Source: Chrysomallon squamiferum
Taxonomy: Eukaryota; Mollusca; Gastropoda; Neomphalida; Peltospiridae
Direction: 5' to 3'
Assembly: GCA_012295275.1 (NCBI GenBank)
Contig: CM022667.1
Span: 4,645,708 to 4,709,707, forward strand
DNA length: 64,000 nt
Shown here piece by piece: positions 166 to 36,500 of this stretch. The translations under genes and the position numbers were made by a program. The notes under the pieces were generated by a model. That model made no database searches. It was not told the DNA's origin and worked only from the letters and a program-made list of their open reading frames with translations. Within the stretch, counting starts at the first letter, position 1. Each line of letters opens with the position of its first letter.

Positions 166-238
166 AACGTGTAAACAAAGTTTTCACAGTAACATTTTTT
201 CCACAAAATGTTTAAAGAAAATAAAACTGGTGACAAAC

Positions 239-523: not shown

Positions 524-572
<49 letters not shown>

Positions 573-2301: not shown

Positions 2302-2847
2302 TTTCTTTTATTGTTTCAAAAATTACAATCATTTTAAAACGAAACGAAATATTCTAACTGTACCACAGCAATCAAAACAGTATTTTATAAAATATTATTG
2401 TTGGTTTAAAAATACTAATGTTCCATAATATTGTACTTATTAGAAAAGTTGGAAAGAGATTTGATTATAATATTTTAAAATGTTAATCCTTTTCCATATC
2501 TATATTCATTTTATTAATTGGCGGGCTTTTAAACATTGATGTCACTGAAGTTTCCGTAATTATTTCAAAAGAGCGGGTAGGTATCTTTTATTTTAAGAAT
2601 GGATGCTTTTAAACAAACAAACAAACACAAAATATTATTATTACTCAAAACACATAATTAATGGAACTGACAAATAGTTTGTGTCAATTTATCAGTTATT
2701 GTAATTAACCTTAAAAACAAGATATTTTTCTTGGGTGGGGGTGTTTTTGTTTTTGTGATGTGTCATTGTATGCTAGTTATTATTAATAATATTCGGGCTT
2801 ATGTTTAATCAAAAGTATTATTCTCAACTTATTCCTGTTTCAGGGCC
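2302..2847. promoter_or_regulatory. Bidirectional promoter region NUDCD1/CENPT with E2F-like site
   Basis: This 546-bp spacer separates the NUDCD1 start (minus) from the CENPT start (plus). TTGGCGGG at 2518-2525 fits the E2F consensus, which would suit a cell-cycle gene such as CENPT. A GTAGGT donor near 2577-2581 and a CTGTTTCAG acceptor ending at 2843 suggest a non-coding first CENPT exon spliced to the coding exon that begins at 2844. The sites are by-eye matches only, and transcription starts are not known. Confidence 0.5.
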
Positions 2848-5800
2848 ATGTCTAATTCAAAAACTCCACGCACGCTGATACAGGATCGCACCGAGAGTGT
2901 TTCCACGGAGAAAAACATTCATTTCACTCGGAAACGGACTCCGCAGTCAACATCAACAAAATCAAAAAGTTCAATGACTTTATTACCAGGAGGATCAGCG
3001 ACTAAGAAACTTCAGTCATTGTCAGTCACTGAAGCAAGTGAATTTACACCAAGACAACTGGTAGGTATGCGAAGTTAGTAGGATTGCCATTGTCCACTAG
3101 AGCAATTCAAAAGTATATAATAATTATATATGATTATATCATCACGATAATCATAATCAGATAATGACATACATAATAATAATCACAGGGCATCAACAGA
3201 TTTAATTTTTATTAAAAATTAACATAACTTAAATTAGTCAAGCACATTAATCATCATTATTATATATATATAGCTATTGTGTTGAAAGCCTCAGTATGAT
3301 GTTTCCAATTTTGTTGTAGATATTAAAACAAAATTACAAAATTAAGAAATCAAAATATAATTTTGACTTTTCTAATGCACTGTTCTCATATTTACAGATA
3401 TCTGCTTTTCTAATGACACCCAACACCACCGTTCCTTTAACACGTCAGCAGAGTCGAATAAAAGAGGGCATGGATATGCCACCCCCTACTTCAAGTGTCA
3501 AATCTAAACAACGTCTTCGAAGATCGTCACTAGGAATCCCACGTGTTGAGGAAATCGTGAAGAAATTTACTCCTCGCACGGGTATCGAGGGACTGCTAAC
3601 TCAGGGTTTGTTACTTTTAGCTTGTTACCAGAGACTGTTAACTTTATTTCAATAAGCATTTTTATTATTTTACATTCTGTGTTTTTTTTAAATTAGTTAC
3701 ATAATGCTGTCATGTTCCTTTTCTTATATTTTTTTAAAATTTTTACATCAGGATGTATTTAATATATCTATTTTTAAAAATCTTTATGTGGAACTGAAAT
3801 ATATTATTGTGAAAAGCAACAGTCTGTTTTGTTTCTCTAAAAAATCATAGTACATAAAAATACTATCGTACTATATAATAATAGTGTTTATATTTAAGCG
3901 AAGTGAGGCTTTTTTTGTAGCACCTGAACAAACACCTGTGATAGGTAACAAAAGGAAGAGAAAATCTCGTTCTTCGCATTCACTTCCTGGAGTTGATGCT
4001 TTCCTAAAAGATGCATCATTTGAACCACTGCAAAAAAGGTTTGCATTAGCCAAACATATTTAATATGAATGTGTGTGTGTGTCTGTGGAAAACAATTGTT
4101 AAAATAAACTAATTCACCCTATTTTGTAACATTAATAACTGCAAGTGACTGATTTAATTCTTTATCTTCTTATTTATTTAAATATATTTAGAAAAAGTAA
4201 TTTTATAATCAGTAAAAGTAAAATTAATCCAGTGTTGTTGTGTTTCTAGTTCTGTGGGTAGTTTGCCTCCCTCTGAAATTCGACATGGAACTAGGAAACG
4301 TCGTCCAATTCAGATTGACATAGTACACAAAGCTGCTGATGTTTCAACAGGTAAATACTTTTTTGATATATATATATATGGATGTAGGATGTAGTGTAAA
4401 CATTATTATTTATATCTGATAAGTTATATCTGTAGTTCAAGTGATATTTTTCTTGACTGCAATAGTTAGAGAGTGTTAGCATGCCAACAGATGTAGACTA
4501 GTGGCATATTCATTTCCTAGAAATTCCTGGAAACTAGACATCAAAGGCAGCTAAATCTTATTTTAAAACAACAGAAAGTTGTTTTTTTATTTCCTTTATA
4601 ATTGTAGAAAATTATTTTATGTATCAGATGAACCAGACCTGTCTGAAAATGTTTCAGATGAAAGGGAAGCTACTCCTGTAGAAACTGATGAAGATGTTGA
4701 CATGGCAACCAGGAAGACTCCAAAGAGACGGAGATCTTCAGTAAAAGAAAGAGATAAAAATGTAAGCAGTGTGAAAGGTTTGTCTGGAAAACGCAAATCA
4801 CAGCAGACTCAGGTCAGCGACAATGAGCATCTGAATGTGAGTACAGCATCAGCGAAAAAAACAAAGAGAATCATTCTGTCTCCATACACAAAACATGTGT
4901 CACACGAAGAACCTGACAGCCCACTCCAGACACATTCTGCTCAGACATCACCAGTGGTTTCAAGAGAGGACAAAACCATTTTCTTTTCCCCTGGAAATAG
5001 GCCATTGTCTCAGAGATCAGAAAAGGAAAGTAATAACACAGACCATTATCTGTCACACTTAACTGACCACCCAGCTGAAACTGAGGCTGAGAGTCCAGGA
5101 AGGCAAGTTTCTTTACGCAGACAAGCAGTAATGCATGCCACTCACAAGGTGACTGAAAGTGACAGTCGTGATTCGACAACTGCAGGTCACAGTTTGTATC
5201 GTGGTCCCAGTGTAGGTGACGTACAAGTGACTACTTCTGTAAGCAGACGGACACTGAATCATACAGATGTTGATGTCAGTCAAGGTGAAGAGGATTTTGA
5301 TGATGTGCAGACTCGTTCAACAAGAGAATCGTTTAGAAACAAGTCGATGTTTGTTGATGGTGCTGGGTCTAAAAACTTTGACATTTCATTTGACAGCCAA
5401 AAAACCTTGCATCCAGTCAGGACCAGCACCCCAGCTGTTGGTCAGAAGTCTCCCAGGACAAGAATGAAAAACAGTGAAAGACAAAGTGCACGTCATCCAG
5501 ACGAACCTGTTGATGACCTGGTGGAAAATAGATCTCCTCAGAGACGAATTTCGCTACAGCAGTTCATCTCCAATCAGAAACAGAGTTTAGTTCACGAAAA
5601 TAGCTCTCCTCAAACATCAGTTTCTCTTCATCAAACCAAATCACATCAGAGACAAAATTCTCTTCATGAAGCAAGCTCGCCTCAAAGACAAAATTCACTT
5701 CATCAAGAAAGCTCTCCTCGGAGGCAAATTTCACTTCACCAGGCAAGCTCTCCTAAGACTCGAAGTTCACTTCGAAAGGCAAGCTCTGCTCAAAGACAAA

Positions 5801-7781
5801 GTTCTCATCATCAGACGAGCTCTCCTCAAGGACAAATATCACTTCATGAGGCAAGCTCTCCTAAGAGTCGAAGCTCACTTCGAAAGGCAAGCTCAGCTCA
5901 AAGACAAATTTTACTTCGTTACGAAGGCTCTCCTCGGGTTGTCTCTCCACGTAAAAGAAAATCACTTGAGAGTGTACGACACAGTATGGAGTTCACTGAT
6001 GACACAGATGACGGAGAGGAGATCTCAAGTGTTGTTGAAAGTGTCATAGGACAGCTGGCATCTGAAAATGATCGTGTTGCTGATGTTGAGAAAGTTGTTG
6101 ACGAGGCTGTGGGTGAGGAGATGATGGATGAAGATGGTGTTGTCGAAGAGGATGAAGAGGATGTGAGAGATCTCGGTGCTGCTGTAGACAAGCAGTTAGC
6201 TGAGGTTAGTAGGGTTACATAATAAGTCTGTGTATGTGTGAGAATTCTGTTTCTGTTTAGTGGCTTATATAGTTTTGTTAAAACACTGACTGAATGATAA
6301 ATAACTTTGTAAAAATACTGAGGGGAGAGATCCTTCCTGTTTTTCTTCTACTCAATTGTTGTTGTTGTTGTTTGTTTTATTTTATTTATTTGTTATTGCT
6401 AATTTCAGAATTTAGAAGTGCATCATTTAAACAGATTGTCAAAAGAAAAGTAAGTTTAATTGTGTAAAGGTTTTATTAAAAGAAAGTTAGTGTTATTAAC
6501 ATTGTTTTATTATTATTACTATTATTGTTATTGTTCAACATAACTAGTAAATGAAAAGTAACTTACTAAGATCTTGAAATTTAGATTAAAGAAAATATAT
6601 TATTTGTTATTATTGTTGTCATTACAATTTTTATTATTACCATTATTTTTCTTTTATGGTTATCACTATTGTTGCTTCCTTTATTTCTCCCTTTATTGTT
6701 GCACTGAGTTATAAGTTTAAAAGATATTTCTGTAAAGTACTTCATTATGGGTGTCGGGATTGTTTTTCTTAATGTTAATAATAAATTTATTTCTAACATT
6801 TGTTGCATTAAGTTGTAAGTTCACGTAAAGTATTCTATTATGTTTTTGTTATGTCAAAGTTATTTCTAACATTTATGTTATGTTTAAACATTTCTGGAAA
6901 ATATTTTACTACTTAATATCATCGTGTATGATTCTGGTTTGTGTTACAGAAAGAAAACAAAGAGTAAGCGGAAGACAGCAGACAAATCTCATCTTCCTGC
7001 TGGTGTAGTGAAACATCTGTTCACTCACTTCTGCAGAGCTCGGGTTACTAAAGAGGCCATAGAAGAAGTTGTCAGGATGTGAGTTTTTAATCTGTGAAAT
7101 TGTTTTAACTAACCTTCTTAATATCTCTGTATAATAAATAAAATAATAATAAAAAAATGAATTGTTGAAGTTAAAAATTCTTTGAAAGGAAATAATAAAT
7201 AATGTTTACATTTCGTTTTTCTTTCATTTTTCTTTATTTCTTTATTATATTTTTATTTTATTTTATTTTATTTTGTCATGTATTTAGTTCTGGAAAATTC
7301 TGGAAGTCAATGGCTGCTGATTTGGATGTTTATGCTCGACATGGACAAAGAAAAACTGTCACAGATGAAGATGTCGAACTGCTTATGAAAAGGTATCTCT
7401 TGTACAGTGTCTTCTGTTTAGATGAATTTACATTTAATTTATGACCATCTGAAAGTTTCTCATCTTAACCTCAAAAAGTCTGAGAAGCTGATGTTAATAT
7501 ACACAGAATAATTAATACTGTTCAGGAGATGATATGGTTAACATATGCTTCTTCTTTGTTGGACAGTAAGTTAGCTTACAGTAAATATTCCAGATTCCAG
7601 TCATAGCAGTGTGTTTTGAAATGTTTTCTTATTCTGTTTTTTCAGACAGGGTTTTGTGACAGAAGACAAATCTCTGAACACGCTGATACACCAATATCTG
7701 CCACTGGAAGTACAAGAACAAGTGATTCCTATAGCCAGAGCTGGAAACAGACTAGAACTCAACAAAAAATACATTACATAA
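2848..7781 (+). CDS. CENPT: Centromere protein T (CENP-T), histone-fold kinetochore protein
   Basis: CENP-T is a DNA-binding subunit of the inner kinetochore network. Its C-terminal histone fold pairs with CENP-W, and in vertebrates its CDK-phosphorylated N-terminal tail recruits NDC80 and MIS12 complexes. Nine exons: 2848-3060, 3398-3605, 3921-4038, 4250-4350, 4628-6204, 6409-6449, 6950-7078, 7288-7392, 7646-7781. All phases close, giving 875 residues (human 561). The N-terminus TPRTLIQ resembles the human TPRTLLRR start. The C-terminal exons give a histone fold (LPAGVVKHLFTHFC, then FWKSMAADLDVYARHG, TVTDEDVELLMKRQG) and the family tail LPLEVQEQVIP. The 1.6-kb exon 5 is disordered, rich in Ser, Arg and Pro, and holds a 12-residue tandem repeat, followed by a Glu/Asp-rich stretch. 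An upstream non-coding exon is likely. The extra length is all in the disordered middle. Confidence 0.9.
5545..5940 (+). repeat. CENPT: Coding minisatellite: eleven 36-bp units (12-aa Ser-Pro repeat) in CENPT
   Basis: The frame divides without gaps into eleven 12-residue units of the type R-Q-x-S-L-H-x-A-S-S-P-x. Units 6-8 and 9-11 form a three-unit higher-order repeat: each set opens with a QISLH..ASSP unit and continues with an identical RSSLRKASSAQR unit. Most units keep an SSP (minimal CDK site) and a basic-x-x-Ser motif. The repeat preserves the frame exactly. Confidence 0.85.
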
Positions 7782-8782
7782 AATAAAAAATACATTACAT
7801 AAAATTAAAAATGTATTATATAAACAAAACAATAAAAATACTTCATGTTAACTGAAATAAAATACATGACATAAACAACAACAAAACAAATGTAACATAA
7901 ACTTGACAAAAGGATCCTGATAAACATCAGCTAACAGAGCTGTCACAATGTTAATAATAAAACAGCAACAAAGAAAATAATTGAGATATATATACACACA
8001 TACACACACACCTTAGTTATGCCAATAATTTATGGATTGAAAATGTTTCTGTTGACATTTTGATAGAATTATTTTTTGTTAAGCAACAGTCGTTAGTGTA
8101 ATATAAAGATAAAAGATAAATATACATGTTTTCATATTTGTTGTTATAAACCATTTTTGGCTCAGAAGATGTCATCAGGAGCTTTATTTTTTTTGTCATG
8201 TTTTGTTTAATAATTAAAATTTTATCTTTATTTTTTATTTATTTCTTTATTATTTTATTATTTTTCTCTTTGTTTTTTCTCCTCATTGCATTTTTCTTTC
8301 AGAATCCAAAATCTGCATTGGATGTAGTGTAAAATAAATTGTACATTTTTTGTTATTAAATTGATCAAATGTTTATTTTATTAGTCTTTTGTTTACATTG
8401 TTCCTCGCATACTTAACAGATTTGTGAATACCTACAAATGTCTGTCACTTTTAATTTGGGAATGTGTGAAATGTCCTCATGACCTTGAATGAAGCATAGG
8501 ACGTCTGACACAAATAAACATTCAAAATGTAACATGGCATCATTAATATTCTTAAAGAGATGATGTTTGTATTGATACAGTATAGTACATTATTAAAGGT
8601 CCCTAGCAGATAAAGTGTTGCACTAGATAAGGGAGTAAGAATTTGAAAGTGTAAGGGGGGATAATGTGAAACTAACAAACAGTAACGCTTTTTTCATGTA
8701 AATGAAAACCAACAGCAAATTATTAATTTTTATTTCAATTTTTTTTTCTAAGACAACAAATGATTTTTATCACAGATATTAA
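7782..8782. other. Convergent intergenic region CENPT/RBFA (3' UTRs)
   Basis: Two 3' ends meet here. AATAAA occurs right after the CENPT stop (7782-7787) and again at 8333-8338. The second follows a good acceptor, CTTTCAG, with a possible exon edge at 8303, so an alternative or untranslated terminal CENPT exon is possible but unproven. The rest is AT-rich with no convincing gene. Confidence 0.5.
8729..8734 (-). terminator. RBFA: Probable RBFA polyadenylation signal
   Basis: TTTATT on the plus strand reads AATAAA on the minus strand, about 50 bp downstream of the RBFA stop codon. In such AT-rich DNA this hexamer is common, so the position relative to the stop is the main support. Confidence 0.45.
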
Positions 8783-9710
8783 TTATTTTTCATCCTCTAT
8801 GTAATATTCATCATCACTGTAATCATCATCGTAATAATCATTAGCATCATCTTGATCAGAGGGCAGAATATTCCAGAAATCTTTTCCTTCATTTCGTAAG
8901 TAATCGTTGACAGTGTACGGCACTTTGCCTTTTAGACGTTTCATCTTCTTCCTCTTTCTCAGAAATGTGCTGTAGTCTGGAACTGTCACTTCTGCAGTCT
9001 TCGAATCTCGACTTTCCTCACTGATAAAACTTAAAGTGTCTTCTGATGCACGGTGTTTGATTCTCCTTTTTTTCATAAGCAGTTTACTCATCAAACTGTC
9101 GTGTTGCAAGTTGTAGAGATCACTTCTAAGTTTCACCCCTTCCAGAAGTGAAAAATCTTTTGTGTGTTTTTTATTCTCTTCAGAAATGTTTTCGGAGTCA
9201 TAACTCTCAAAAGCTGAGCTTTGATTCTCTGTAACAGTTTCTTTTGCAGTGAAACTATCCACAATAGTATCACTTTGCTGTGATTTTTCTTCTTTCTGCA
9301 TAAAACTCTGACCCACTTTTGTCGTTTCATCTTTCTTGCTAGATTCAGAATCAAATGTTTTTCCGGCATCTTCCAAAACCACTGACCCAGTGTCGGTCAC
9401 TGTCAGAATGCCAGGGTAAGAATGGTAGTCGGTGTTTTCTAACGACATCTTTGAGAAATCTCTCATGATGTTTCTCTTTCCTGGCACTTTTTTCCAAGGT
9501 CTCACTTGTGTGGTGTAAATTGCTGGTTCATAATCGGGACCATAATCAGCGATGTTCAACAGATTTTCTACTTGTAGAATGTTAGCTTCTCTCTCATCCT
9601 TGATGAAGTTTATAACTGGTATGTGACCAAGAAGGTGATATGAAGTCAGGATGTATCTGAAGATAACAATAAATAATATATAGTGTATCTGTATCTATAT
9701 CCATCCATCC

Positions 9711-9745
<35 letters not shown>

Positions 9746-11461
9746 TAATATATATATCACAAGAAATACAAAAAATAAATAAATAAATAAAAATAATAAA
9801 CTAGAATCTGATTAAAATATGTTTACAAACAATCTTCTGTCACTCTGAGAGGTGTAAATTCTACACCATGAGCAAGTTTTAGAATGTAATGCATATGACT
9901 GTCCAGGAATCTTTTTTTTTTTTTACATTCTACATATGATTTTATTTACATTCAAAAACAATAATATGATATTTTTATTTTTTTATTTTTTAAAATGAAA
10001 GATCTATATTTACATACCTAAGTTTTCCAGAATTCTGTTTAAGTAAAGTTTCAATTCTGTCATCTTCATGTCCCCCTGTAGCCAGCCAGTGAACATTGAT
10101 AGCACTGAAGTCAGGCACCACACTCACCTGTGTAATAGCAATTATTAACTGTTACTGTGTTGCAGAATGTGAATTTTAATATATTAATCTTTAACACAAA
10201 GTAGAACATAACCTATTTAAAGAAGTCCAGTTTCCCAAATAAAAAGGTAAAATTTAAAATGTATTTTTAATTAAATATTTATGTTTGGCTGTTGATAAAA
10301 ACTAGTTATCTATCTGTAAGATCAACAAAAAATATATTTTACATCCATACTCCACTGTTAATGAAATCAAATTCTTTAATATTAACTCGCAATAATAGTT
10401 CGCTGTTAATAAAATCTAGTTACCATATCTGTGACATTAAAAAAAGTTATTTTTAAGTAAATATCTAAACTGACCTATTAATGATATCTAATAATCCCAT
10501 CTATAAAATAAAAATTAATTTGTCTAATGTTTTGTGTAAACATTTACCCTGTCTATGTTGACAGCCATGTCAGCCAGCTGGGGACAGATCTCGCCAGAGT
10601 TGATCATTTGAACAATGTATTCATACAAAACATTTCCAACTTGTACAGCTCTTCGTCTTTGACCTTCACTTGGGCCTCTCTTTCTCTTATTTTGTTGTGA
10701 CATACCAGCGGTATCCTGCAGAAATAACAAAAATATATGTAATGTAGAAATTGATTATTTCTTAATCGCTCTACTGAAGTATTTTTATGATTTTTAAACA
10801 AATAAATAATATAAATAATTTTTTGAAACTGCATTTAATTGAAACTTACCATGTTTGCTGGCTGGGAATACCATGTTTTTTTCCTGCCAAGGTAAAAAGT
10901 ATTATCAGTAAATAGATATTTACATGACTCTCATGATTTTATAATAAACAAAACACCTTGAAAAAAGTAGTTATGCTGATCAACACTGAATAAAAATTAA
11001 TGCAAAATAATTTATAATTTAATTACTGATTTAAATTGATATTTCTGCAACAGTTCATTAATAAATAATAATTTAAATTATATTAAATGGTTATATGATT
11101 TTTGTACAATCAGAACAGTGAGTAGTAAATATACTGCCACCACTATGGCAATGTGAATTTTTAATTTATATATGTTATTTATCTTATACATATATGCTGC
11201 AAACATAATAACATAAATCTTTGAAATTTTAATTGGCAATTCTTTGAAATTAATATTATCCTATGTAATAAGACGTTTTGCATTTTCAAATCAACTCTAC
11301 TAAAGACTAAAGTATACAAATAAAAATACCCACTTTGGTCCTTTATTTAACATTTTCATCAACTGTTTTGTCATTCTTACTTGACTTTTCCATCGGATAG
11401 CACTATAATTATGTCTGACCACTCCAGACACTAATCTGGAACAAATCTGTTTGCAAAACAT
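8783..11461 (-). CDS. RBFA: Mitochondrial ribosome-binding factor A
   Basis: RBFA binds the mitochondrial small ribosomal subunit during maturation near helices 44/45 of 12S rRNA. Five exons on the minus strand: 11334-11461, 10850-10883, 10548-10715, 10018-10127, 8783-9656. All phases close, giving 437 residues (human 343). The N-terminus (MFCKQICSRLVSGVVRHNY) is basic and lacks acids, as expected of a mitochondrial presequence. Exon 2 gives KKTWY (human KKFWY). The KH-like RbfA domain spans exons 3-5, with NIDRVSVVPDFSAINVHW (human VELSKVSLTPDFSACRAYW) and then the IPVINFIKDEREAN strand. LLNIADYGPDYEP matches the human LLAVADFGP motif. The tail is unusually long and acidic, ending in Asp/Tyr-rich sequence. 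The exon 1 donor is GTGGGT, chosen over the adjacent GTATTT because only it keeps frame. Head-to-head with TCF25. Confidence 0.85.
9708..9757. repeat. ATAC/AT microsatellite in RBFA intron 4
   Basis: About seven ATAC units followed by AT dinucleotides, inside the intron between RBFA exons 4 and 5. No other feature is seen in that 361-bp intron. Confidence 0.8.
10285..10510. repeat. Degenerate tandem repeat in RBFA intron 3
   Basis: Four loosely related copies of a block with a CTGTTAATAAAATCTAGTTA core and a following ATCTGT occur about 45-75 bp apart between RBFA exons 3 and 4. Copies are strongly decayed. They do not contain a recognisable RBFA exon edge. Confidence 0.4.
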
Positions 11462-11775
11462 TTCTACAAGATTAACAAAACTGAAAAAATAAAAATACAC
11501 AGTTTGACATTTGCTTTCTTATGGGAGCTGACATGTTGTCAGTCTGCAATAAAAAAAATAAAAAAAAAAAAAAAAAAAGGTAATAAAATTATATAAATCT
11601 TAATACGTTATTGAAATTTATATATTACTGTAACGGAGACATATTTTAATTATTTTGTTTCTAATCTTTAAGTTAAATTATGTTTAAAGAATCAGTAGCG
11701 AAGTAAATCATGGGATACTTCCGGTTACCTATCAAAACGAAAGTGATTAAATGATGTATTAAAAAGTGGCTTGAG
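11462..11775. promoter_or_regulatory. Bidirectional promoter region RBFA/TCF25 with ETS-like site
   Basis: Only 314 bp separate the RBFA start (minus) and TCF25 start (plus). ACTTCCGGT at 11717-11725 is the reverse complement of ACCGGAAGT, a canonical ETS/GABP-type site common in housekeeping promoters. A possible minus-strand acceptor (TTTTTTCAG) just above the RBFA ATG suggests an untranslated first RBFA exon. A poly(A) run lies at about 11550-11578. Site calls are by eye. Confidence 0.5.
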
Positions 11776-12189
11776 ATGTCGAGCAGAGCTCTGAGAAGAC
11801 GTCAAGAACAAATAGGAATTCTTGATCCTTTGGCGTTGTCTCTGACAAATGCAGGAGTTCAGGAAGAGTCGGGTTCAGATGAGAATGACGAACCATTGCA
11901 ACCATCTGGATCTAAAAAGAAGGGAAGACGAAATAAAAATTCGCGAATAACAAATCCTTTTGAATTGGTATGTAATATCACCATTTATAGATCTTGTTAT
12001 AATCCATTTATTCAAAGTCTGGTAAGCCTAATGATACAAAATATCTCCAATTAAATCTGTATGAAATGGATTACTCTTACTCGATTCCTTCTTGCCACAA
12101 ATCAGTACCTAACTGAGAGCTCAGAAACAGACACCAAACTAAAGTTTTCCTCAAATAGTTAACAGTTTGGGAAAAAGCCACGAAAACCC

Positions 12190-12225
<36 letters not shown>

Positions 12226-12999
12226 ATAATAATAATAATAATAAATAAATAAATAAATAAATAATGTGCATTTCATATTCTTATTTGTATATCTTATGCA
12301 CTTTAAATATTTCAGCTCAATGAGGATGCAAGTAATGATGATGTGAATGAGAGCAATGTGGCTGAATGTCAGGAAAATTCAGACATAGTTATAACAAATG
12401 AAAATGAAAATTCTGTAGAACAGAATACGTCTAAGAAAAAGAAGAAGAAAAAGAAGAAAAAAGGAAAAGAAAACAAGACACAAGAAGATGAAGCAGGAGG
12501 AGAGGTAAATGTTACAGCTAATGAATCAGTGAATTGACACATTTTTTATATTTATTTTTAGTTAACAAGCATACAAACATACAGACATCTACGTTTTTTA
12601 TGCAACTCATATCATAGGTATGTCTTTATGTATGTATGTATCATTGTATATACGTAGAAAAGTATTCACAGTACATAAGTATGATTTTAAGAATTGTTTC
12701 TGATAGGTTGAAGATGAAATTGAAGCTAGTATTCGTGAGGTAAACAAAATTCTGGGAGAGACTGGACCAGTTAGAAATCATCAAGTCACAGAAACAAATG
12801 TTGGTTTTGATATGAAAAGACTTCTACATGTTGAATACAGGTATTCTGTTTTATAACTCTTCTGTGACACAGGTGTTGTGAAACTATTTTATAACATCAC
12901 TGATATATTACAACTTAGGTATTAATGAAAAAGAGATGTTTTCTCTAGCTTGTTATTTACATATGATTTGTATTATTATTATCATTATTATCATTATTA

Positions 13000-13045
<46 letters not shown>

Positions 13046-13059
13046 TTTTATCATTATTA

Positions 13060-13098
<39 letters not shown>

Positions 13099-16000
13099 TA
13101 TTATTATTATTATTGCAGACATCTGAATCCAGACAATGAACTGAAAAGAATTTTTGGATCCAGAGTGGTTAGATCAGAAAACAGGTAAAAAAAAAAAAAT
13201 CACAAATGAAGAAATTATATAATCACTTGATTTATTTTCTAATCACATGTCTAAGTAGTTACTTTTAAGAAAAATAAACAGAAATTCTTCTGCTTTAAAT
13301 CATTTATTATTCTTAAGTATTTCGAAACAAAATGGCCCTATTTTGAAGTTAACAGAGTACTGTTCAAACTGAATTTTAAAAAAAATATAAACATTTGATA
13401 ATTTTATAATTTGATGTCTATTCAGAAACGTCTGGAGAATTTGTAAATAAAAACACATAAAACAGCTTTGACTCCTACAACATACAAAACAACATTCATT
13501 TTCAGTTTATTTCATTTCGTAAAAATAAATCTGTTTTTATTTTTAAGTCGATCAAGAAACAGAAATCGTCCGTACCATAGACCAACAAAACTTGTACAGA
13601 ATCGAGACAATTGGCCTCCCATTGGCAAAAGTGGTAAATAATAAACATTTCTGATTATTTGTTTAAAAAATATAACACTCTTATCCACTGTTAAACAATA
13701 ATAAAAAAAAATTATTATTGTTATTATTTTATTATATTTTTTATTATTTTTTATTTTTCCAATAAATTTTACTGATAAAATATTTTTTAAATGTATTAAA
13801 AATAATTTATTTATTATAACATAACATAACATAACATAATATAATAGCATTTAAAATATAAAAAGAGACTTTATGTTGTATTTTAGGTTTGTCTATGTCA
13901 CTACTGGAGTGTCAGTCTGGATATCAGTATTTCACGTTTGAACATAGTCATCAGTACCAGCAAATACAGTTCCAGTTTCTGGATGCAGTCGAATCCCTCA
14001 ATCCAGAAAATATTACAGTAAGTGGTGTCTGACTGTCTGTGTGACAGTATTTGTTTTTCTGTCTGTTTATTATAGTCTCAGCCTTCAGAAATAATTTTAT
14101 TTTATAATTTTATTTAAACAGTGTAGCAATTAGTAAAAATTTTTATTTCAAATTGTTCTGTTTTAGTTAGTCTGTACGTAAAATATATAATTTGTTTTAT
14201 TAACTATTGAGATTTGATGTTGTGAACTCAGTATTATATGTTTGTATATTGTTTTATTTGTAACAGAATCTCATACAAACACATCCCTATCATATAGACT
14301 CCCTGATACAGATGAGTGAGATTTTCAGAATGAGCGAAGATGTGCAAGGAGCATCTCATTTCATAGGTGAAATTATTTATTTATTTATTTATTAAGTTTA
14401 TATATTTAAAATTATTTTTATGTGGCGTGGTAATTTTATATAAATATCTTGTTATGTAATGAATAAACTACATATTGTACCTAACCGAAAGACCAGAAAA
14501 AATGAATGATTGATTTGGGGTAAATAAATTTAGAAATTTTTATAACATAACATACGATATAATACTTTAACATTTTAAATAATTTATTACAAATAACAGC
14601 AGATTTGAGGCATGAAGCAGTGCAGCTATTGAAACATCAAAATGTTGTTAAAAACTGGAGTAAATTGTATAGTATTTTGTTTTACTTCCAGAACGAGCTC
14701 TGTATGCGTTTGAAAACTCTTTCCATCCATCATTCAGTCTGACAACTGGAACATGCAGACTGGATTACAGAAGACAGGAAAACAGGTAAATTATTTCATT
14801 GTTTTCTTCTTTTGTTTGAAAACACAAGCCTTTCATAATTTGGATCTCAAGTTTTTACCATGTTTATACTGTTGTAATCATTTATTTTTTTATATGTCTT
14901 AGTTATTTCATAAATATCAAAAAGGTATCCATTAATCAATGTTTTAGTTAATACATATTTGAAAATTAAAAGTTTGCAACCAAATCAGTAATAATGCATT
15001 ATCTGTGAATTGTTAAATGACTTACAATTACCTCTACTCTGTTTTTTTAAATTATTTATATTTGATTTAATTATGATTATATGACTTCTGTAAAATTGTT
15101 ATTTTGTTACAATTCTCATTTGTCTTATTATTTAAAATTGTGATTATAAATCAAATGTAAATGTTTATAATTTATAATTATTAATATTCATGTTGTATAA
15201 GTTTTATGTTATGTTTTTAGCAGATTTTAATTCTTTTTTTTTTACAAATTTTAATTATTTTCTTTTTATATAAAAAAGACTATATATATATATATATTTT
15301 TTTTTATTTTTAATTTCAGAGCCTTCCATCTTTGTTTGTTCAAACATCTGATGTCTATAGGGCAAAGAGGGTGTTACAGAACTGCCATGGAGTTCTGTAA
15401 GATGTTACTAAGGTAACAGACATATTTTGAGATCTGTGCAGCAGTCTACATTAAGAATGTTAATTCCATAAAATGTATTTTTAAATTTTAACTTATTCTT
15501 TTACTCGTCACTTTTGTTAGAAACAGATAAAGTTGTCACAGCTTGTTTAAAACATTTTATATTTTCAATACTGATACTGTCATAGCAGGTGTAAAAAAGA
15601 TTTAAGTAATAATACTTACTAGCAGCAGTCTTATGAGAAAGAAAACCAGTCACTTCAATATACAGTGTAGCCTACAGTGATAATGAGCTATGGTATAATT
15701 TATGTGTCTCTTTAAATAAACATGAAAACACATACATTCATATTTTTATAGTTAATTAATTAATGGAGCTTTGGCTTAAACAGGAAAGAGTGTGTATGTA
15801 TTAAAACTGAATGTATGTATTTTTTTAATTATTTTTTCCAGTTTAGACCCAGATGCTGACCCAATGTGTGTCTTACTGATGATTGACTTTTACGCTCTCA
15901 GGGCTGAAGAGTTCAGTTTCCTTATTCGCATGTATAATGAATGGGAGGTGATTTATTTTACATAATTTTATTAAAAAAACAAAAGAAACCCCGATATTTT

Positions 16001-19000
16001 CACGTGACAAAATAATATAAAAATCAGAACATTATTTTTCATATATAATTTTATGATTTTCTTGATGGTTTTATTATATATTTTAATTTATTTTATATAT
16101 TTCAGGAAATTTGTTTTTATATTTCATTTGGATAATACAAGTACAGATTTTTAAAAAAGATTTTATTTATTTTATTTATACTGTGTTTATATATATAAAA
16201 GAAACTAAACAACATAAAATAAAACAACAGACAGTATGGGCTATCAGATTTCAGTGTTATTTTACATTTCAGGCTCACAGGAACCTGTCTCAGTTACCAA
16301 ACTTTGCTCTGTCAGTTCCACTGGCAATGTTTCACCAGGCACAACAGAATGACACTGACTGCGATGCTGCTGATGAAATGGTATGTTGTATCAGTGTAGT
16401 AGCTGTGTGTGTAACCTTAGAAGTATCCCATGCTTTGTGTTTCTCTCACTTTTAATGAATTTTATTGATTATTTATAAAAATAATTTTAGTGTCATTCTT
16501 CACTGATTTAATTAGTGAAATTAAAAATAATCATTTAGTGGTATCTTGTTCATGGAAAAATCTACCCACTCTGTTTTCAGGGTTCAGTTGTAATAGTCAT
16601 ATTCTAGTTGTTTATTAATCTGTCTCTGTGTGTCAGTACGTCTGTCAGTATCTCTCTGTCTATTTCTCTGTTTTCTTTTCTCTCAGACAGCACAACACCA
16701 ATTCACACTTAATCTCTTTACCTTCTTGGTGCATGTGTTTGTGTGTGCATCTCTCTTTCGCTCTCTGAAACAGTATACTGATTATTTAAATGTGTGTTTG
16801 TGTGCATATACACACACACAAACTCTTTTAGTTACTATTCAGTTTACTATGACTGTTTTTTCAAAATAAACCTAATGAAGATAACAATTATTATGTTTAT
16901 TTAGAATTAACTGTATAAAATGTAGTTATGTTTTTGTTTCTTACAGCTGCAGAAAGGGTTGATAATGTTCCCAGGTTTTCTGATGTCAGTGTTAGACAAG
17001 TGTAGTGTACATCCTGATGCAAGAGTGTCTAGTCATCCTTTCTTTGGTCCTGCATCACAGTACAGGTAATCACATTTCTGTCAGGATACACAGAGTTTTT
17101 CTTTTACAGTTTCTAATGCTGTAGTTTTGTAATAAATTATTTATTCTTAATTAGTTGTTGACTGTGAACAATTTATCATCCTGAATATTGTTATTTTCTT
17201 TTCTGTATGTTTGTTTCTTTGAATCTGTATGTTTATTTTCAGTCAATCCATGGCTTTAAAATCTATGGCTTTAAAACAGCTGATAGCTCTGTGTGTTTAT
17301 TTTCAGTCAGTCTATGGCTTTAAAACAGCTGATAGCTCTGTATTTTTACTTTCAGTCAATCTATGGCTTTAAAACAACTGATAGCTCTGTATGTTTACTT
17401 TCAGTCAATCTATGGCTTTAAAACAGCTGATAGCTCTGTATGTTTATTTTCACAGCTGATAGCTCTGTATGTTTATTTTCACAGCTGATAGCTCTGTGTG
17501 TTTATTTTCAGTCAATCTATGGCTTTAAAACAGCTGATAGCTCTGTATGTTTATTTTCACAGCTGATAGCTCTGTATGTTTATTTTCACAGCTGATAGCT
17601 CTGTGTGTTTATTTTCAGTCAATCTATGGCTTTAAAACAGCTGATAGCTCTGTATGTTTACTTTCAGTCAATCTATGGCTTTAAAACAACTGATAGCTCT
17701 GTGTGTTTATTTTCAGTCAATCTATGGCTTTAAAACAGCTGATAGCTCTGTATGTTTGTTTTCAGTCAATCCATGGTTTTAAAACAGCTGATGGCTTTAA
17801 AACAGCTGATAGCTCTGTATGTTTATTTTCACAGCTGATAGCTCTGTATGTTTATTTTCACAGCTGATAGCTCTGTGTGTTTATTTTCAGTCAATCTATG
17901 GCTTTAAAACAGCTGATAGCTCTGTATGTTTACTTTCAGTCAATCTATGGCTTTAAAACAACTGATAGCTCTGTGTGTTTATTTTCAGTCAATCTATGGC
18001 TTTAAAACAGCTGATAGCTCTGTATGTTTGTTTTCAGTCAATCCATGGTTTTAAAACAGCTGATGGTTTTTAAAACAGCTGATAGCTCTGTATGTTTATT
18101 TTCACAGCTGATAGCTCTGTATGTTTATTTTCACAGCTGATAGCTCTGTGTGTTTACTTTCAGTCAATCTATGGCTTTAAAACAACTGATAGCTCTGTGT
18201 GTTTATTTTCAGTCAATCTATGGCTTTAAAACAGCTGATAGCTCTGTATGTTTGTTTTCAGTCAATCCATGGTTTTAAAACAGCTGATGGCTTTAAAACA
18301 GCTGATAGCTCTGTATGTTTGTTTTCAGTCAATCCATGGTTTTAAAACAGCTGATGGCTTTAAAACAGCTGATAGCTCTGTATGTTTGTTTTCAGTCAAT
18401 CCATGGTTTTAAAACAGCTGATGGCTTTAAAACAGCTGATAGCTCTGTATGTTTATTTTCACAGCTGATAGCTCTGTATGTTTATTTTCACAGCTGATAG
18501 CTCTGTGTGTTTATTTTCAGTCAATCTATGGCTTTTAAAACAGCACTGATAGCTCTGTATGTTTATTTTCACAGCTGATAGCTCTGTATGTTTATTTTCA
18601 CAGCTGATAGCTCTGTGTGTTTATTTTCAGTCAATCTATGGTTTTTAAAACAGCTGATAGCTCTGTATGTTTACTTTCAGTCAATCTATGGCTTTAAAAC
18701 AACTGATAGCTCTGTGTGTTTACTTTCAGTCAATCTATGGCTTTAAAACAACTGATAGCTCTGTGTGTTTATTTTCAGTCAATCTATGGCTTTAAAACAG
18801 CTGATAGCTCTGTATGTTTGTTTTCAGTCAATCCATGGTTTTAAAACAGCTGATGGCTTTAAAACAGCTGATAGCTCTGTATGTTTATTTTCACAGCTGA
18901 TAGCTCTGTATGTTTATTTTCAGTCAATCTATGGCTTTAAAACAGCTGATAGCTCTGTATGTTTATTTTCACAGCTGATAGCTCTGTATGTTTATTTTCA

Positions 19001-21480
19001 CAGCTGATAGCTCTGTGTGTTTATTTTCAGTCAATCTATGGCTTTAAAACAGCTGATAGCTCTGTATGTTTATTTTCACAGCTGATAGCTCTGTATGTTT
19101 ATTTTCACAGCTGATAGCTCTGTGTGTTTATTTTCAGTCAATCTATGGCTTTAAAACAGCTGATAGCTCTGTATGTTTACTTTCAGTCAATCTATGGCTT
19201 TAAAACAACTGATAGCTCTGTGTGTTTACTTTCAGTCAATCTATGGCTTTAAAACAACTGATAGCTCTGTGTGTTTATTTTCAGTCAATCTATGGCTTTA
19301 AAACAGCTGATAGCTCTGTATGTTTGTTTTCAGTCAATCCATGGTTTTAAAACAGCTGATGGCTTTAAAACAGCTGATAGCTCTGTGTGTTTACTTTCAG
19401 TCAATCTATGGCTTTAAAACAACTGATAGCTCTGTATGTTTACTTTCAGTCAATCTATGGCTTTAAAACAGCTGATAGCTCTGTGTGTTTATTTTCAGTC
19501 AATCTATGGCTTTAAAACAACTGATAGCTCTGTGTGTTTACTTTCAGTCAATCCATGGTTTTAAAACAGCTGATGGCTTTAAAACAGCTGATAGCTCTGT
19601 GTGTTTATTTTCAGTCAATCTATGGCTTTAAAACAACTGATAGCTCTGTATGTTGGGCGGTCTTTTCCTTGCTGGAAGGAATCAGAAGTGATGACGTGGC
19701 TGGAGAAGAACGTCAGGATTGTGTTAGACAGAGTTGACAACAATGATCCACTGGTGGAAGAATGCAGAGAGAAGTAAGTGTTCACTTTTCAGTTTTGAAT
19801 GTATTTAGTATCTAATTCTGTTTGGTTTCTGATTTAATTTAATTTATTTAAAGATTTATTATATTTATTTCAGTTTCTAATTTTTTTTAATTTTTTTTAT
19901 TTAATTTAAATAAAGGTTTATTATATTTATTTATTTTTTTATTATTGTTTTATTTGGTTTAATTTAATTTATTAAAAAAAGTTTATTTATACATATATAT
20001 ATACACTCAATACAATACTCACAATACACATCTAATTTTCTTTTTATTTAATTTAATTTGTTTAAATGTTTATTATATTTTTATATTATATTTTTTTATT
20101 TTCCATATTATATTTATTTTATTTCTGTTTCATATTTTATTTTCTATTTAATTTAATTTAATTTATTTTTTATTTTGTTTGGTTCTAATTTTATTTTTTA
20201 TTTTTTTTTATTTATTATATTTATTTTATTTCAGAAGAAAGGTTCGTTACCAGGGAACTCCAAGGAACATTCTGAGACACATTATTTTAGCAGAAGTAAA
20301 AGATGCAACAGCAGAACTTCCTCCTGTAAGTTGAATCTTTTGTCAGTCATAAATATTATTCAGAACAATTTTATTCAAAGATTTTTTATCTAACATGCAT
20401 ACAAATACTTTAAAATTACTTACATATTTGTTTTTGTGTGTGTGTGTGTGTTTTGTAGATAGATAGATAGATAGATGCCTCAAGAATGTTTTTCTTATTA
20501 AAAAAGAAAATCATTTTCTAATTTGATCTCTAGGGATTTGAGTTCATTTAAAGATGACCATTGCAATGTATATTACAGTTTGCTTTACAAAGGTGTAGAA
20601 CATTTCCATGCATGTATGTATGCATGTATGTATGTTGTATGTGTGTATTTGTGCATGTAAATTATGTAAAATAAGATTTCTGTTTCTCAGGACCTAGCAC
20701 ACTCTCCAGTGTTGAGCTATGACCCTCTTCCTCCTCAGGATTCAGTTGCATCTTACACAAGACCTGACAGGTGAGTAACAACATTTTATCTGTAATTTAG
20801 AAAACACTGATAAGTAGACTGTTACATAAAAACAGACGTACAAACATACATACACCAAGACAAAAATATCAACACAGAGAAAACAAATATAATTATAATT
20901 TTCATTATTTTTGTTTCAGGTCTCATGGAGGCCGAACGCAGGCCAATACAATATCTCTGTTCTGGAGATCACTTCTTCCTAACTACAACCCTGAGGTAAA
21001 TTAATTTTATTTTGTTAATTACAATAAATAAATTATCATTAACAAATATTTTCACCTAAATAGCAACAAGTAATCTGCTGTTTGCTCTTTCTAATGTATT
21101 TTATAACCGAAAAATAATATTTGGAATTAAAGAAACATATACATATATTTTTATTTCATTAAATTGAGTGTTTCTATCCCATTAATATTTTGTGTGCTCA
21201 AGTGTAATAAGTTTTTTCTTCAAATGTTTAAAGTGTATGCTTTATAACATTATAACATACAGTTTGCAAAAGGTAGGTCATGTCAAACTTGTCTGTTCTT
21301 CAGGAACCTGGTGAAGAAGAGGGCGCTGCAGGAGGAGATAACCCTCAGAATAACCTGCGTCGTGGAGTTGGTGTGTTGATGGAAGCTATGAGAGACTTGT
21401 TAAACAACATTCAGTTAGTTCCTCCCCCAGTAGAAAACAGACCTGAGGGGGAGGAAAGAGAAGATGAGGAATGGGAATAA
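11776..21480 (+). CDS. TCF25: TCF25/Rqc1 homologue, ribosome-associated quality-control factor
   Basis: TCF25 (NULP1) is the animal counterpart of yeast Rqc1, which works with Listerin and NEMF on stalled 60S subunits and promotes K48-linked ubiquitination of nascent chains. Seventeen exons: 11776-11967, 12316-12504, 12707-12840, 13119-13184, 13548-13633, 13887-14017, 14267-14366, 14692-14785, 15320-15412, 15842-15947, 16273-16380, 16947-17065, 19615-19773, 20235-20325, 20691-20770, 20920-20995, 21304-21480. All phases close, giving 666 residues (human 676). Landmarks: MSSRALRRR start, a ten-lysine run in exon 2, [29 protein letters not shown]-like [45 protein letters not shown]-like [44 protein letters not shown] and the acidic end EEWE. 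Intron 12 (17066-19614) is largely a minisatellite copied from its own 3' splice site. The true exon 13 start is the last acceptor of that array. Confidence 0.92.
12187..12265. repeat. Poly(A) plus AAT/AAAT microsatellite, TCF25 intron 1
   Basis: A run of A residues of about 33 bp is followed by AAT and then AAAT repeats, in TCF25 intron 1 roughly 50 bp before exon 2. The repeat structure suggests a decayed poly(A)-tailed insertion, but no element body was recognised. Confidence 0.7.
12966..13113. repeat. ATT microsatellite forming the 3' end of TCF25 intron 3
   Basis: A run of ATT triplets of about 148 bp reaches to the TTGCAG acceptor of TCF25 exon 4 (exon starts 13119). The triplet run therefore stands in for the usual pyrimidine tract. 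Confidence 0.9.
17226..19654 (+). repeat. TCF25: Minisatellite of about 2.4 kb made of duplicated TCF25 intron-12/exon-13 splice junctions
   Basis: The unit is 49 bp: intron end TATTTTCAG, then the first 40 bp of exon 13, starting TCAATCTATGGCTTTAAAAC and ending CTGTATGTT. By eye there are about 36 copies with TTTCAG followed by TCAATC or a close variant. About 17 more are a shorter 29-bp form (TTTTCACAG then CTGATAGCTC). A variant form has an extra 18-bp block (CTGATGGCTTTAAAACAG). Copies are nearly identical. The last copy continues into the true exon (GGGCGGTCTTTTCC follows at 19655). Since 49 is not a multiple of three, splicing to the penultimate copy shifts the frame, and one of the three frames has TAA (CTTTAA), so only the final acceptor yields TCF25. 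Confidence 0.95.
20455..20476. repeat. TAGA microsatellite, TCF25 intron 14
   Basis: A short run of TAGA units after a (TG)n stretch at about 20435-20451, in the intron between exons 14 and 15. Confidence 0.8.
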
Positions 21481-30586: not shown

Positions 30587-33500
30587 GCAGGAAACATCAG
30601 TTCAACAGCAGAAGAAGAAAAGAAAACTTCACAAACAGGACTTCAATAAAAGTTTTATTTTTTCTGACCAGGTTTGTTTTAATGTTTTATATATTTAAAT
30701 GTATGTAAACTGTAATTATTCATATAATTATAGCTGATAATTATATTGTTAACCAGTGTTGTTAATTCTTATAATAAGTAAGGCAAAATAAAATAAAAAA
30801 AGCTGTTTGTAATTTTTATTTTAAATAGTTTGAAGAAAACAATGTATTTGATTTGGACATCGCTCTCAAAATGGCCAGAAGAAAAAAGTCTGCAACTACT
30901 TTGGATGAGAAGATAGAATTAGCCAGGAGAAAGAGAAAAAAAGAGGTACACTGCTTTGTTGTGGGTTGAAGGAGGGGGGGTACATACTTACAGCATTAGT
31001 TGAGACATAGTTATAGCATTAGTTCTTATTTCTGGTAAATTTCTGGATCACATTCTAACTTGTGTCTGTTGATTGTTTCAGTAAATTTTATGTTACCATC
31101 ATATGTGAAATTTAAAAAGACAGAATATATAAGTTAAAGTTATTATTTATGTATTTTACTATTTAACATTAGTGACCTGAAACTGTGTATAATTAACCCT
31201 TTGATGAAAATATACTTTTCAGTTAGTATTTTTATATGATAATTTAATCACATCAATAATGAATATTGTTTCTGCTATAATCTTGTTTAGTGATACAGCA
31301 TTTTCATATGCATCTTCTCACAGACTGCAAAAGGTTAAGGAAGAAGATTTTGAATAATTATGATGCATTGCACAAAAATATTTCTGATACAAACTGTATG
31401 TTTAGCTGAAAGATTTAAATTTTTTGTTGTGGTTCATAATTTTGCTATGTTATCCATTTATCAATTATTGCAAGGTCATCCAGAGACACTGAAATCTTTG
31501 AAAGGTTGTTTTAATATTTATTGTTATTTCAGGGTCAGGAAGATTTGCCTCTAGACTCTTTAAACATGGATGATTCTGAATCATCTGGAGAGGATATGGA
31601 GGAGGAAGATGTTAAAGGTTGGTATGTGTTGTCCTGTACACAGGCACTGATCACTTATTCATCTTATCAAACATCAGTAAGAAACTGATATATGATCACT
31701 GATGCATCAATTTGAAATCTTCTGCCTGAGAATACAAAACATCATTGATAAAAAATTAAACATGATACTATACAGTTACAAAGTTATAAACATTAAGTCA
31801 AGTTCCATAACTGTACCAGGTTTGTGTGATTGTGAGAATGTTCAAATCATTTCATTTTTTCTTTTTACATTTACTTTTGTTAGATTTTTTTTCATTCCAG
31901 CTGGTTCTCCTAAAAGAAGCTGAAAAATAATTTAAAACTGAATATCATTTAACTTACTATCAGTGTCTTATTTCAGAAAATGAAATTTGATGTTACAATA
32001 ATGTTTTTACATTTTTTTTTTTCAGACACAATTAAAATGAAAGAAAAGAGAAAGAGAAAGAGAAAAAATCAAATATATGAAGAAGAGGAGGAAGTAAGTG
32101 TTTTGTTAAGATTGTGTTTAGAAACAGGTGTTATAATTTTTAGAGTTGAAATCCCCAATGCTAATTCACATTGATGCTAAACAGTCCAGTAAAAAGTGTT
32201 AAACAAAATTAATTTAATTATCAAAAATATACTTTAAAAATCCAAATCTGTTTATTTTTTCAGTTGGATAAAATTATTTTAACTCTGAAATCTGGAAATT
32301 TTACTTTAGAAATCATTTACATATTACTGACTTGAATAAGTATTAATATGTTTCTTTTTTTTTTCAAAATAGGAAAAGGAGAAAATAGAATTTTCAGAAA
32401 ACATTGACACGTATGATGAAAATTTGACTTTTCAAGACATGGCTGTGTCTAGACCTTTGTTAAAGGTCAGTCTAGAAATATTTATACAGTTCACCTGTGA
32501 TAATATTGGTGTTTGTGTACAGGTGTGAAAAGAAAGTTTAAATGTGTGTGTATTTGTACTATTCTGTGGATTACATTTAGCAGTGGACATGCAAGAAAAG
32601 AAGAGTATTTGTATATCTGCATATTTCTAGAGCATATTTCAAGTGTACACAGGCATAACTGTATTTCTTGTTCTTTGGTGAACTCCAATCATTATAACTG
32701 GCATTGTGGAGTATTTGATATTTAAATTCCTTTTTATTTCAAGGCTCTTGGTACACTGAAGTTTGAACGACCAACTCCAATTCAAGCAGCAACAATTCCT
32801 GTAGCTTTGAAAGCAAAAGATATTTGTGCTTGTGCTATCACTGGCTCAGGTAAAAAAATAAAATTTAATTATATTGTCAGTTTTAAGTTGTACTCCTAGA
32901 TGCATTTTGTAGTATAAAGGAGTTTTTCATTTTATTTAATATTAACAGCCTAGTTAAATTTCAAACTGTTACAATTCTGTTATTGTTTGCTAGCAATATT
33001 TCTTATTTATTTATTTATTTATTTTTAATTATTTTATTTAATTATTTATTTAATTATTATTATTTATATGTGTGTGTGTGTGTGTGAGTTTGTTATTTTT
33101 AAAATATTTTATTTATTTATTTATATATTTTCTTTTTATTTATTTATTTTTTTATATTAAATTTTTCAAGCCACCAAAGAACAGATTAAAATATCTTCAA
33201 AAAAATCAGTCAGTAATGTAGTTTGTTCATTTCTTAATTAGGTATATTTCTGTTAAGTGTAAAATCTAGCCTTCATATTACTCTTTTTGTATTATTAATT
33301 TTAGCTAAATAATAATCTGCAATTTTACACGCATACTAACTTTCTTTGTGAATGTTTAATCACATATAATTATTATTATAATTATTACTGTCATATTACA
33401 GGTAAAACTATAGCGTTCATGTTGCCTATTCTCGAGAGACTTCTCTACAGACCAAAATACGCGTCAGTGACGAGAGTTCTTGTTTTAGTTCCCACCCGAG

Positions 33501-36500
33501 AGTTAGCCGTCCAGGTCCACACTGTTGCTAGGCAACTGGCTCAATTCACAAATATTGAAATCTGCTTATCAGCCGGTGAGTTTGGAATGGATATCTTTTT
33601 TCTTTTGTGTAATTAATTAAATAAAATTTTGATTAAAAACAGTAATTACAGGATGAGTCTGTACACAGAAGAGTTAGGAATATTCATAATTTTGTTTGTT
33701 TCAGGATAACAATTTTCAAAACTGTTTGAAAAACAAATAGTATTTTACTATAAGAAATATTTTTTAACTTGTTTTCCTGTCTCACTTCAGGTGGTCTTGA
33801 TTTAAAAAGTCAGGCAGCTTCATTGAAAATGGGTCCAGATGTTGTCATAGCAACACCTGGCAGATTGATCGACCATCTTCACAACTCTCCCAACTTCAGT
33901 CTCAACAGCATCGAAATTCTAGTCCTGGACGAGGCAGACAGGTGAGATACTCAACATTTATTTATTTATTTATTTATTTTCATTCATTCATTCATTTCGT
34001 CATTCACTTACTTAGTTGCGTCCTTACATGTTTATTTATTTATTTATTTTTATTTAAAATTTTTGTTTAGTTATTGATTGAGAGAGATTTTATTTATTTT
34101 TATTATTTCATCATTATTAATTTTTTAGAAGTTTGTTGGGAATAATCATGTATAGATCTGTGTTAATAACAGCTGTATCATTTACTAGTGTGTCTTGTAT
34201 AGTGTTTAAGTAATACTGTATGAAATAATAGCTCATATTTAGTTGCAATGTTTACCTTGTTATTCATATTTGCATATTTATGTAAGTTAATAGTTACTGA
34301 CTTAAAAAGTACATGTTTGTTATATAGCATGTATAATTACATATGTACAGAAACAGTCTTGTAAAGATATCAGTTATTTCAGATTTTGTTTAATATTTAA
34401 CTGTTATATAAATGTTTTCAGGATGTTGGATGAGTATTTTGCTGAGCAGATGAAGGAGATTATCAGACTGTGTTGTAGACAGAGGCAGACGATGTTGTTT
34501 TCTGCAACAATGACTGAAGAGGTAAACACCTGAACCCAAAATACACGTTAAATGATATATTTTACCTAGTTACAAATCATTCTTGTTTTCTTTATTTTAC
34601 ATCTAATACTGAGAATAGTTTGTTGTACATTTTCCTGACATTTAAAAAATAATTTTACTGTTTTTAAATTTCATTTGTTATGTTCAGACTGGGAATGCAG
34701 AAACACACATTGCATTCACATGTACAAATAAAACAGTATATATACTCACAACAAAATGTTCAGGAACTCAAATATACAAACAAACAAAAACACATAAACA
34801 TCCAAACTTTTTTTGTTTATATCCACCTATATACTGTCTGTAAGACTAAAAAGTATATGAAACAATAAATACCTGCACATAATGTGTATACAATCATCCA
34901 CATCAGCTGTTTTTCATGTATGTAATCTCAAACATTTACTACCAGCCATGTTACACTACTAAACTTTCTAATGTTAGGTTGAGGAGCTGGCTGCTGTGTC
35001 TCTGAAGGACCCAGTCAAAGTGTTTGTCAATGAAAACACTGACATGGCTCTCAGCCTCAGACAGGAGTTCATCAGGATTCGACCTCACCGAGAGGGGGAC
35101 CGGGAGGCCATTGTGGCAGGTACGTTAGTCTTCTTCTTCTTTTAGTATTTTTAATTATGTTTATTTCTTAATTTGTTTTTCATATTGCTTAATCCACAAA
35201 TCAGTTTCATCAGTTAAACAGTTTTTATTTCAACTTCAAAACATTATCAAGATTAGCTCACTCCTGTGTCCTTCAGTTAAAGTGAAATGGTGAAATATCA
35301 CATTTCATTCTGTGCATGAATTTGTTTTATTTATACATCTATTCATTTCAGTTTTAGTAGAAACTTAAAAGATTAATTAATTATCTTTTTACATTAAATT
35401 CTGATGTGAATTTGGTTTTATTTATTATTTTTTTTTTTGTACATACATTATTGATGATTTCTAAAAGAGGCTTAAGGATTAATTATTTGAGTGATTTTCA
35501 CTGTTTCAGCTCTGGTGAGCAGGACGTTCTGTGACAAGTGTATGGTTTTCATTCAGACAAAGATTCAGGCTCACAGGATGCACATCATTCTCGGGTTACT
35601 CGGAGTTAAAGTGGGAGAACTCCATGGTAACCTGTCTCAGGCCCAGGTTAGATACCATATCAGATTTAAAAACCTCAAAACCCTCTACCAATCGCACACA
35701 CACATGTATGCACACATATGCACGCACGCACAAACACATTCACACACACAGAAAGTTATTAATATTTTTTTTACAAATCATTTCACTATTTTAAAAACAT
35801 TTAAAAAATAATTAATGATTTCCTAGTTAAATATTTAAGAATATTTATTTGCACCAGAAACTAAACTGCTGTTTAATTTGTAAATAAAAAAATCTTTAAC
35901 TTTCTGTTGCTATAGCGACTGGAGACACTGAAGTATTTCAAGGAAGGTCTGATAGATGTCCTGCTTGCCACTGATCTTGCTGCGCGAGGTCTCGACATTG
36001 ATGGAGTGAAAACTGTAAATATTATTTTTAATATTTAATAAAACAACTATTCATGATTAATTATATAGAATAAACTTCACATTTTTAACCTCATCTGAGT
36101 GAAAAACATAATTATAAATGTTTGGTAGCTTTATTATTAGAAGTATTTATTTATTTATTTATTTATTTATTTATTTTTTTTTTTATGAAAGTTATTACTT
36201 TTGGTGTGTGTGAGATTTTAAAATGCAGAGAGATAGATAGATAGAGATAAACATGTCTGTTTTTCATATTTGTGTCAGTTTTTGTCAAAAAAACATTTTA
36301 GTTAAATTAAGTTTATTTGTTGATTTATTTTCAGGTGATAAATTTCACTATGCCAAACACAGTTAACCATTACGTTCACAGAGTTGGAAGAACAGCTCGG
36401 GCTGGGAAAAAAGGAAGGTAAAAAAAAATAAAAATAAAATAAATGCATTTAGATCATGAAAAATTCTTAAAAGGGAGATAATTCTTGTTGCTTATCTGTA

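Follow-up and report, generated by a model that had tools for sequence, protein, structure and literature searches.

A minisatellite built from the intron 12/exon 13 boundary of the TCF25 gene in the scaly-foot snail Chrysomallon squamiferum

Results

The window, i.e. the whole stretch of 64,000 nucleotides analysed here (C3:4645708-4709707, in a genome of 404.6 Mb in 22 contigs), harbours the gene TCF25 on the forward strand at 11776-21480. The spliced model consists of 17 coding exons separated by GT-AG introns and comprises 667 codons, stop counted, and the predicted protein matches Pfam Tcf25 with E = 2.4e-130. The closest TCF25 relative among the listed matches is that of Gigantopelta aegis (snail family Peltospiridae; 78% identity), and no near-identical protein was found among the listed matches when either the full protein or its last 270 residues were used as queries. 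Elsewhere in the window a DEAD-box helicase exon (33305-33616, +; Pfam DEAD, E = 1.3e-11) and protein kinase pieces at 57189-58283 and 44981-45421 (-) were identified; the latter correspond to 1-212 and 223-263 of the Pfam Pkinase profile, the second match being below the cut-off, lie about 12 kb apart and may belong to one gene. Two further repeats are present, one of 36 bp with about 8 copies (5646-5937) inside a 551-codon stop-to-stop frame (4567-6222) that has no Pfam match at E 0.001, and an AT-rich 52-bp minisatellite of about 12 copies (49320-49965). No known RNA family was matched within the window at gathering thresholds.

When comparing the introns of TCF25, intron 12 is 2549 nt long while the 15 others range from 149 to 566 nt. 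The difference is due to 2372 nt in which its boundary with exon 13 is repeated in tandem, and with positions 17243-19614 removed the intron measures 177 nt. The features of the region are as follows.

11776..21480 (+): TCF25 coding exons 1-17, stop included (spliced model, Pfam Tcf25, identity to Gigantopelta aegis)
16947..17065 (+): exon 12, donor CAG/gtaatc (spliced model)
17066..17242 (+): unique stretch of intron 12, 177 nt, closing with the first acceptor; presumed ancestral intron end
17202..17211 (+): TCTGTATGTT, further intron copy
17224..17233 (+): TCTGTATGTT, intron copy of the 10-bp direct repeat
17243..19614 (+): array derived from exon 13 start and intron 12 end; its 52 units measure 27-70 bp, and 20 of them 49 bp
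19570..19574 (+): branch-point-like CTGAT whose A is position -42 relative to the true acceptor
19588..19592 (+): second branch-point-like CTGAT, its A being position -24 relative to that acceptor; derived from codons CTG ATA of exon 13
19613..19614 (+): final acceptor AG, the sole tested site with an open TCF25 frame (frame tests, homologue spacing)
19615..19773 (+): exon 13, donor GAA/gtaagt (spliced model)
19645..19654 (+): TCTGTATGTT, exon 13 copy; array/exon homology stops here
19655..19773 (+): exon 13 body beyond the repeat, 119 nt, with 8 GAA-type hexamers

With the first acceptor, the 52 units provide 53 acceptors between 17242 and 19614, in agreement with the coordinates and copy counts of a preliminary description of this DNA. 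Its division into 36 full and 17 shortened copies was also recovered; 36 finish TTTCAG while 17 are 20 bp shorter, giving TTTCACAG. The same description had assigned one acceptor sequence to all units, and every copy does close with an acceptor, but three variants exist among the full copies: TATTTTCAG in 17, TACTTTCAG in 12 and TGTTTTCAG in 7. A unit length of 49 bp, as proposed, applies to 20 of the 52 acceptor-to-acceptor units and not to the full range of 27 to 70 bp. In these twenty, the first 40 bases share 92.5-100% identity with the opening 40 bases of exon 13, in line with the suggested composition.

When 19600-19774 was searched against the genome, 43 matches were obtained, counting exon 13 itself, and every one was situated at the TCF25 locus (best-scored candidates only, so that matches elsewhere are possible), the top array-copy match having E = 8.9e-19. 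The match to exon 13 and the single locus found bear out the earlier view that the array derives from the gene's own boundary and, for the best-scored candidates genome-wide, rule out an unrelated satellite. An array forming one coding exon was likewise ruled out, no forward frame being open for more than 82 codons.

The units fall into 20 types arranged as a mosaic in irregular order, and ten are singletons, five at the edges (units 1, 2, 48, 50 and 52) and five internal (19, 21, 29, 32 and 37). Mean identity among the twenty 49-bp units is 95.6% and exact segment repeats of up to 311 bp occur within the array. This points to an array that is young or kept homogeneous; length and identity were both taken from one assembly, in which polishing of repeats could also inflate the identity between units. 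In the first 33 columns of the twenty 49-bp units two are variable, both at third codon positions. The 67-bp units contribute two more changes (determined by eye), one of them synonymous and the other not; these numbers are too small to judge constraint. As a base rate, 13 arrays with a period of 20 or more, three or more copies and a score of 150 or more were found in 264 kb, made up of the window and four sampled 50-kb blocks; the one in TCF25 is both the longest and the top-scoring.

Analysis of the array edges revealed a direct repeat of 10 bp, TCTGTATGTT, in the intron and in exon 13. Once the array is removed, the two copies are exactly 49 bp apart, i.e. one unit, and a 10-base match at one given junction is expected by chance at ~5e-6 (window composition). 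The third copy, at 17202-17211, indicates that the tract was already repetitive.

The preliminary description held that only the last copy leads into the conserved TCF25 frame, and indeed 19614 alone of the 53 acceptors is open through exon 13. When 145 AG dinucleotides between 17076 and 19640 were tested, 19614 was the only one giving an open TCF25 frame. Stops had earlier been expected from three full units back, which understated the effect, as none of the 52 upstream acceptors reads through to the end of exon 13 without a stop. For the penultimate acceptor the predicted frame shift was retrieved, with a stop at 19735 in exon 13, but the distance is 67 bp and not 49. Joining exon 12 to 19615 gives a junction spacing of 19 residues between the chosen marks, as in 100 of 120 homologues (the best 120 of 1263 matches, from 8000 scored candidates); of the others, 13 had 18 residues, 6 had 16 or 17 and a single one had 67. 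From frame and homology we infer that the productive mRNA joins exon 12 to 19615, and on the same grounds the spliceosome would choose the most distal of about 50 acceptors.

Local strength was ruled out as the reason for this choice. With a matrix built from the 15 other TCF25 acceptors (the splice-site matrices rest on 15-16 sites only), 19614 scores 5.7, the lowest of the 53 and tied with 14 others, while 38 score higher. Moreover, the decoy at 19498 equals the true acceptor exactly from -42 to +35 (77 nt) and ten other decoys match it over at least 27 nt upstream and at least 21 nt downstream, making 11 that are identical over at least 20 nt on each side. Selectivity, if any, would therefore have to rest on the position or order of the sites or on the exon body. 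RNA folding of the last 162 nt (19499-19660) was no better than that of shuffled sequences (z +1.22; 185 of 200 shuffles equally or more stable).

CTRAY is the branch-point consensus. The motif CTGAT is present in all 52 units and precedes every acceptor except the first (52 of 53) at a distance of 24 or 26 nt; the first keeps the old intron end. The last acceptor, which would otherwise have lost its branch region, may thus have gained one through the duplication. At 15-50 nt upstream, CTRAY was found for 52 of 53 array acceptors versus one of 15 other TCF25 introns; given its rarity in the latter, the snail may use looser branch points and CTGAT may then be unused.

A list of 12 enhancer-like motifs was used to count GAA-type hexamers, giving 8 in the 119-nt exon 13 body versus 0 in the 2372-nt array. 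Ten of 16 other TCF25 exons contain no such hexamer, so it is not a general need and the motif argument is weak.

Discussion

We consider it probable that the array is a minisatellite of the 'mirage' type, grown from the TCTGTATGTT repeat and neutral, with the last acceptor chosen by exon definition. The simplest founding event would be slippage or unequal exchange between the TCTGTATGTT copies spanning the splice site, 49 bp apart, producing the first 49-bp duplication; the repeat and its spacing can be read from the sequence, while the route is deduced. Further exchange would have led to growth to 53 acceptors. With the exon start included in the unit, each upstream exon copy would offer its CTGAT to the next acceptor, so that from the second acceptor onward the components of a 3' splice site are in place. 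In this way the last acceptor would be workable although the original intron end is 2.4 kb away, the motif being observed and its use presumed. Most likely, exon definition by the exon 13 body sets the productive acceptor: 19614 belongs to the sole copy fused to that body, with its purine-rich stretch and GTAAGT donor, and would be picked for that reason. Transcripts spliced to other copies carry a computed premature stop and would probably be removed by nonsense-mediated decay. The array itself is most likely neutral and has, we think, no function of its own.

An array with so many competing acceptors could instead act as a regulator, a steady share of TCF25 pre-mRNA being spliced to upstream copies with premature stops and the array length tuning TCF25 output. 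Every upstream acceptor does yield such a stop, 38 of them outscore 19614 and all are transcribed earlier, but amphioxus mirages are reported to yield no aberrant mRNA (PMC3087553, PMC3902484), and we regard this reading as unlikely. As for the assembly, an array invented or grossly mis-sized through assembly and polishing would explain the exact repeats of up to 311 bp, and nanopore assemblies with short-read polishing are probably weak in repeats. The scaly-foot snail was assembled from nanopore reads with short-read polishing (PMC7142155), which speaks for such an error. The 20 unit types in irregular mosaic order, the founding repeat still visible at both array edges and the single genomic locus found among the best-scored candidates argue against it, as does the statement in the same source that reads under 3 kb were dropped, so that the reads could span the array; an artefact appears extremely improbable.

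The units also contain donor-like sites, GTATGT or GTGTGT, in 51 of 52 cases. Were this site, 16 nt ahead of the next acceptor, used as a donor, a full unit would become an in-frame microexon, mostly of 33 or 51 nt, and add peptide repeats to TCF25. From acceptor to donor-like site, 33 of 36 full copies (exon 13 start included) are stop-free and a multiple of three, and a potato gene has gained an intron by duplication across an intron-exon boundary with the donor taken from exon sequence (PMC4974935); none of the 17 shortened copies is open in a multiple of three to the next donor-like site. Against microexons, the donor-like sites score 3.2 and 2.4, under all 16 real TCF25 donors (3.8-11.2), and across the window a score this high is reached by 16-21% of GT dinucleotides; adjacent full copies would be separated by an intron of just 16 nt, and the shared frame stems from one founding unit and not from 33 independent cases. 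In addition, an insertion at this junction was seen in the Nucella prediction only, among the best 120 homologues. Splicing of this kind is thus very unlikely. We give equally little credence to the wider proposal that the array is a store of splice cassettes (branch-like motif, acceptor, open exon and donor-like site), whose units would enter TCF25 as 11- or 17-residue repeats or become introns, with the exon 13 boundary a recurrent site of duplication in gastropods.

In Nucella lapillus, the predicted TCF25 (P0044) is longer by 48 residues, at about 475-522, inserted where exons 12 and 13 meet. The insertion is composed of one extra repeat of the start of exon 13 together with a segment, marked by eye, that reads as a frame-shifted copy; shared DNA explains 14 of its 23 residues on one template (0 of 300 shuffles as good) and 13 of 23 on the other (2 of 300). 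When the Nucella region served as query, 259 candidates were scored and three proteins retrieved, P0044 and two without the insertion. This protein prediction makes a boundary duplication in a second gastropod possible, although the insertion may also have been predicted in error; its repeated stretch is not of the same length as that of the snail array, and the event would therefore be independent.

Returning to the mirage reading, judged by its sequence the TCF25 array is real, and it represents a large, well-formed mirage minisatellite within a conserved gene, probably of ordinary mutational origin. Mirage minisatellites have been described in amphioxus, in the globin genes BflGb6 and BflGb9 and in Adh3 (PMC3087553, PMC3902484), with troponin C and, with imperfect repeats, PGBD5 cited as further examples (PMC3902484), and regular splicing is reported as undisturbed (PMC3087553, PMC3902484). 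These reports argue against the alternative of much mis-splicing raised in the preliminary description, and with mirages already found in amphioxus genes its view that it is unusual for a constitutive 3' splice site to carry a minisatellite is less well supported. The literature searched, which covered few subscription papers, yielded no description of a comparable array from a mollusc. The mirage phenomenon would extend from amphioxus to a mollusc, on a larger scale, and the array would offer a natural test of 3' splice site choice.

According to the same papers, the amphioxus mirages and the TCF25 array are alike in being tandem repeats across an intron-exon boundary that keep splice signals in many units: here the repeat unit spans the boundary of the host gene, and AG or GT signals are found in many units (the 53 acceptors and the donor-like sites in 51 of 52 units). 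BflGb6 is like TCF25 in that the 3' intron end and the 5' part of the next exon are repeated (PMC3087553), and internal homogenisation that leaves out the edge units, a feature of mirages, may have its counterpart in the internal exact repeats of up to 311 bp, the singleton units being divided equally between edges and interior. In a mirage the authentic gene section is situated at one edge and yields the regular mRNA, a place that 19614 would take by frame and homology; mirages are also marked by lengths that vary between haplotypes or somatic cells. In size they differ, the two BflGb6 haplotypes carrying 3 and 6 units, each 150-160 bp long, against 53 acceptors and units of 27-70 bp in the mollusc. 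Unlike the amphioxus cases, the origin of the TCF25 array can be traced, putatively, to a 10-bp direct repeat and its branch-point-like motif to copied codons.

Two further systems can be set beside it. In the human gene IFI6 (6-16, G1P3) a minisatellite provides one gene with multiple splice sites (Turri, Cuin and Porter 1995, via PMC4526556); these are splice donors, of which downstream repeat units are used (PMC4526556), in contrast to the acceptors of the TCF25 array, where donor-like sites exist but score under all 16 real donors. In potato, the RdRp gene gained an intron by a tandem duplication spanning the intron-exon boundary, the new intron inheriting putative branch site, pyrimidine tract and acceptor while the donor came from exon sequence (PMC4974935). 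A clear founding event, such as the short direct repeat across the splice site proposed for TCF25, would fit the view that new introns can arise by tandem duplication, the potato gene representing one duplication with the intron used and TCF25 tens of copies with weak, putative donor-like sites.
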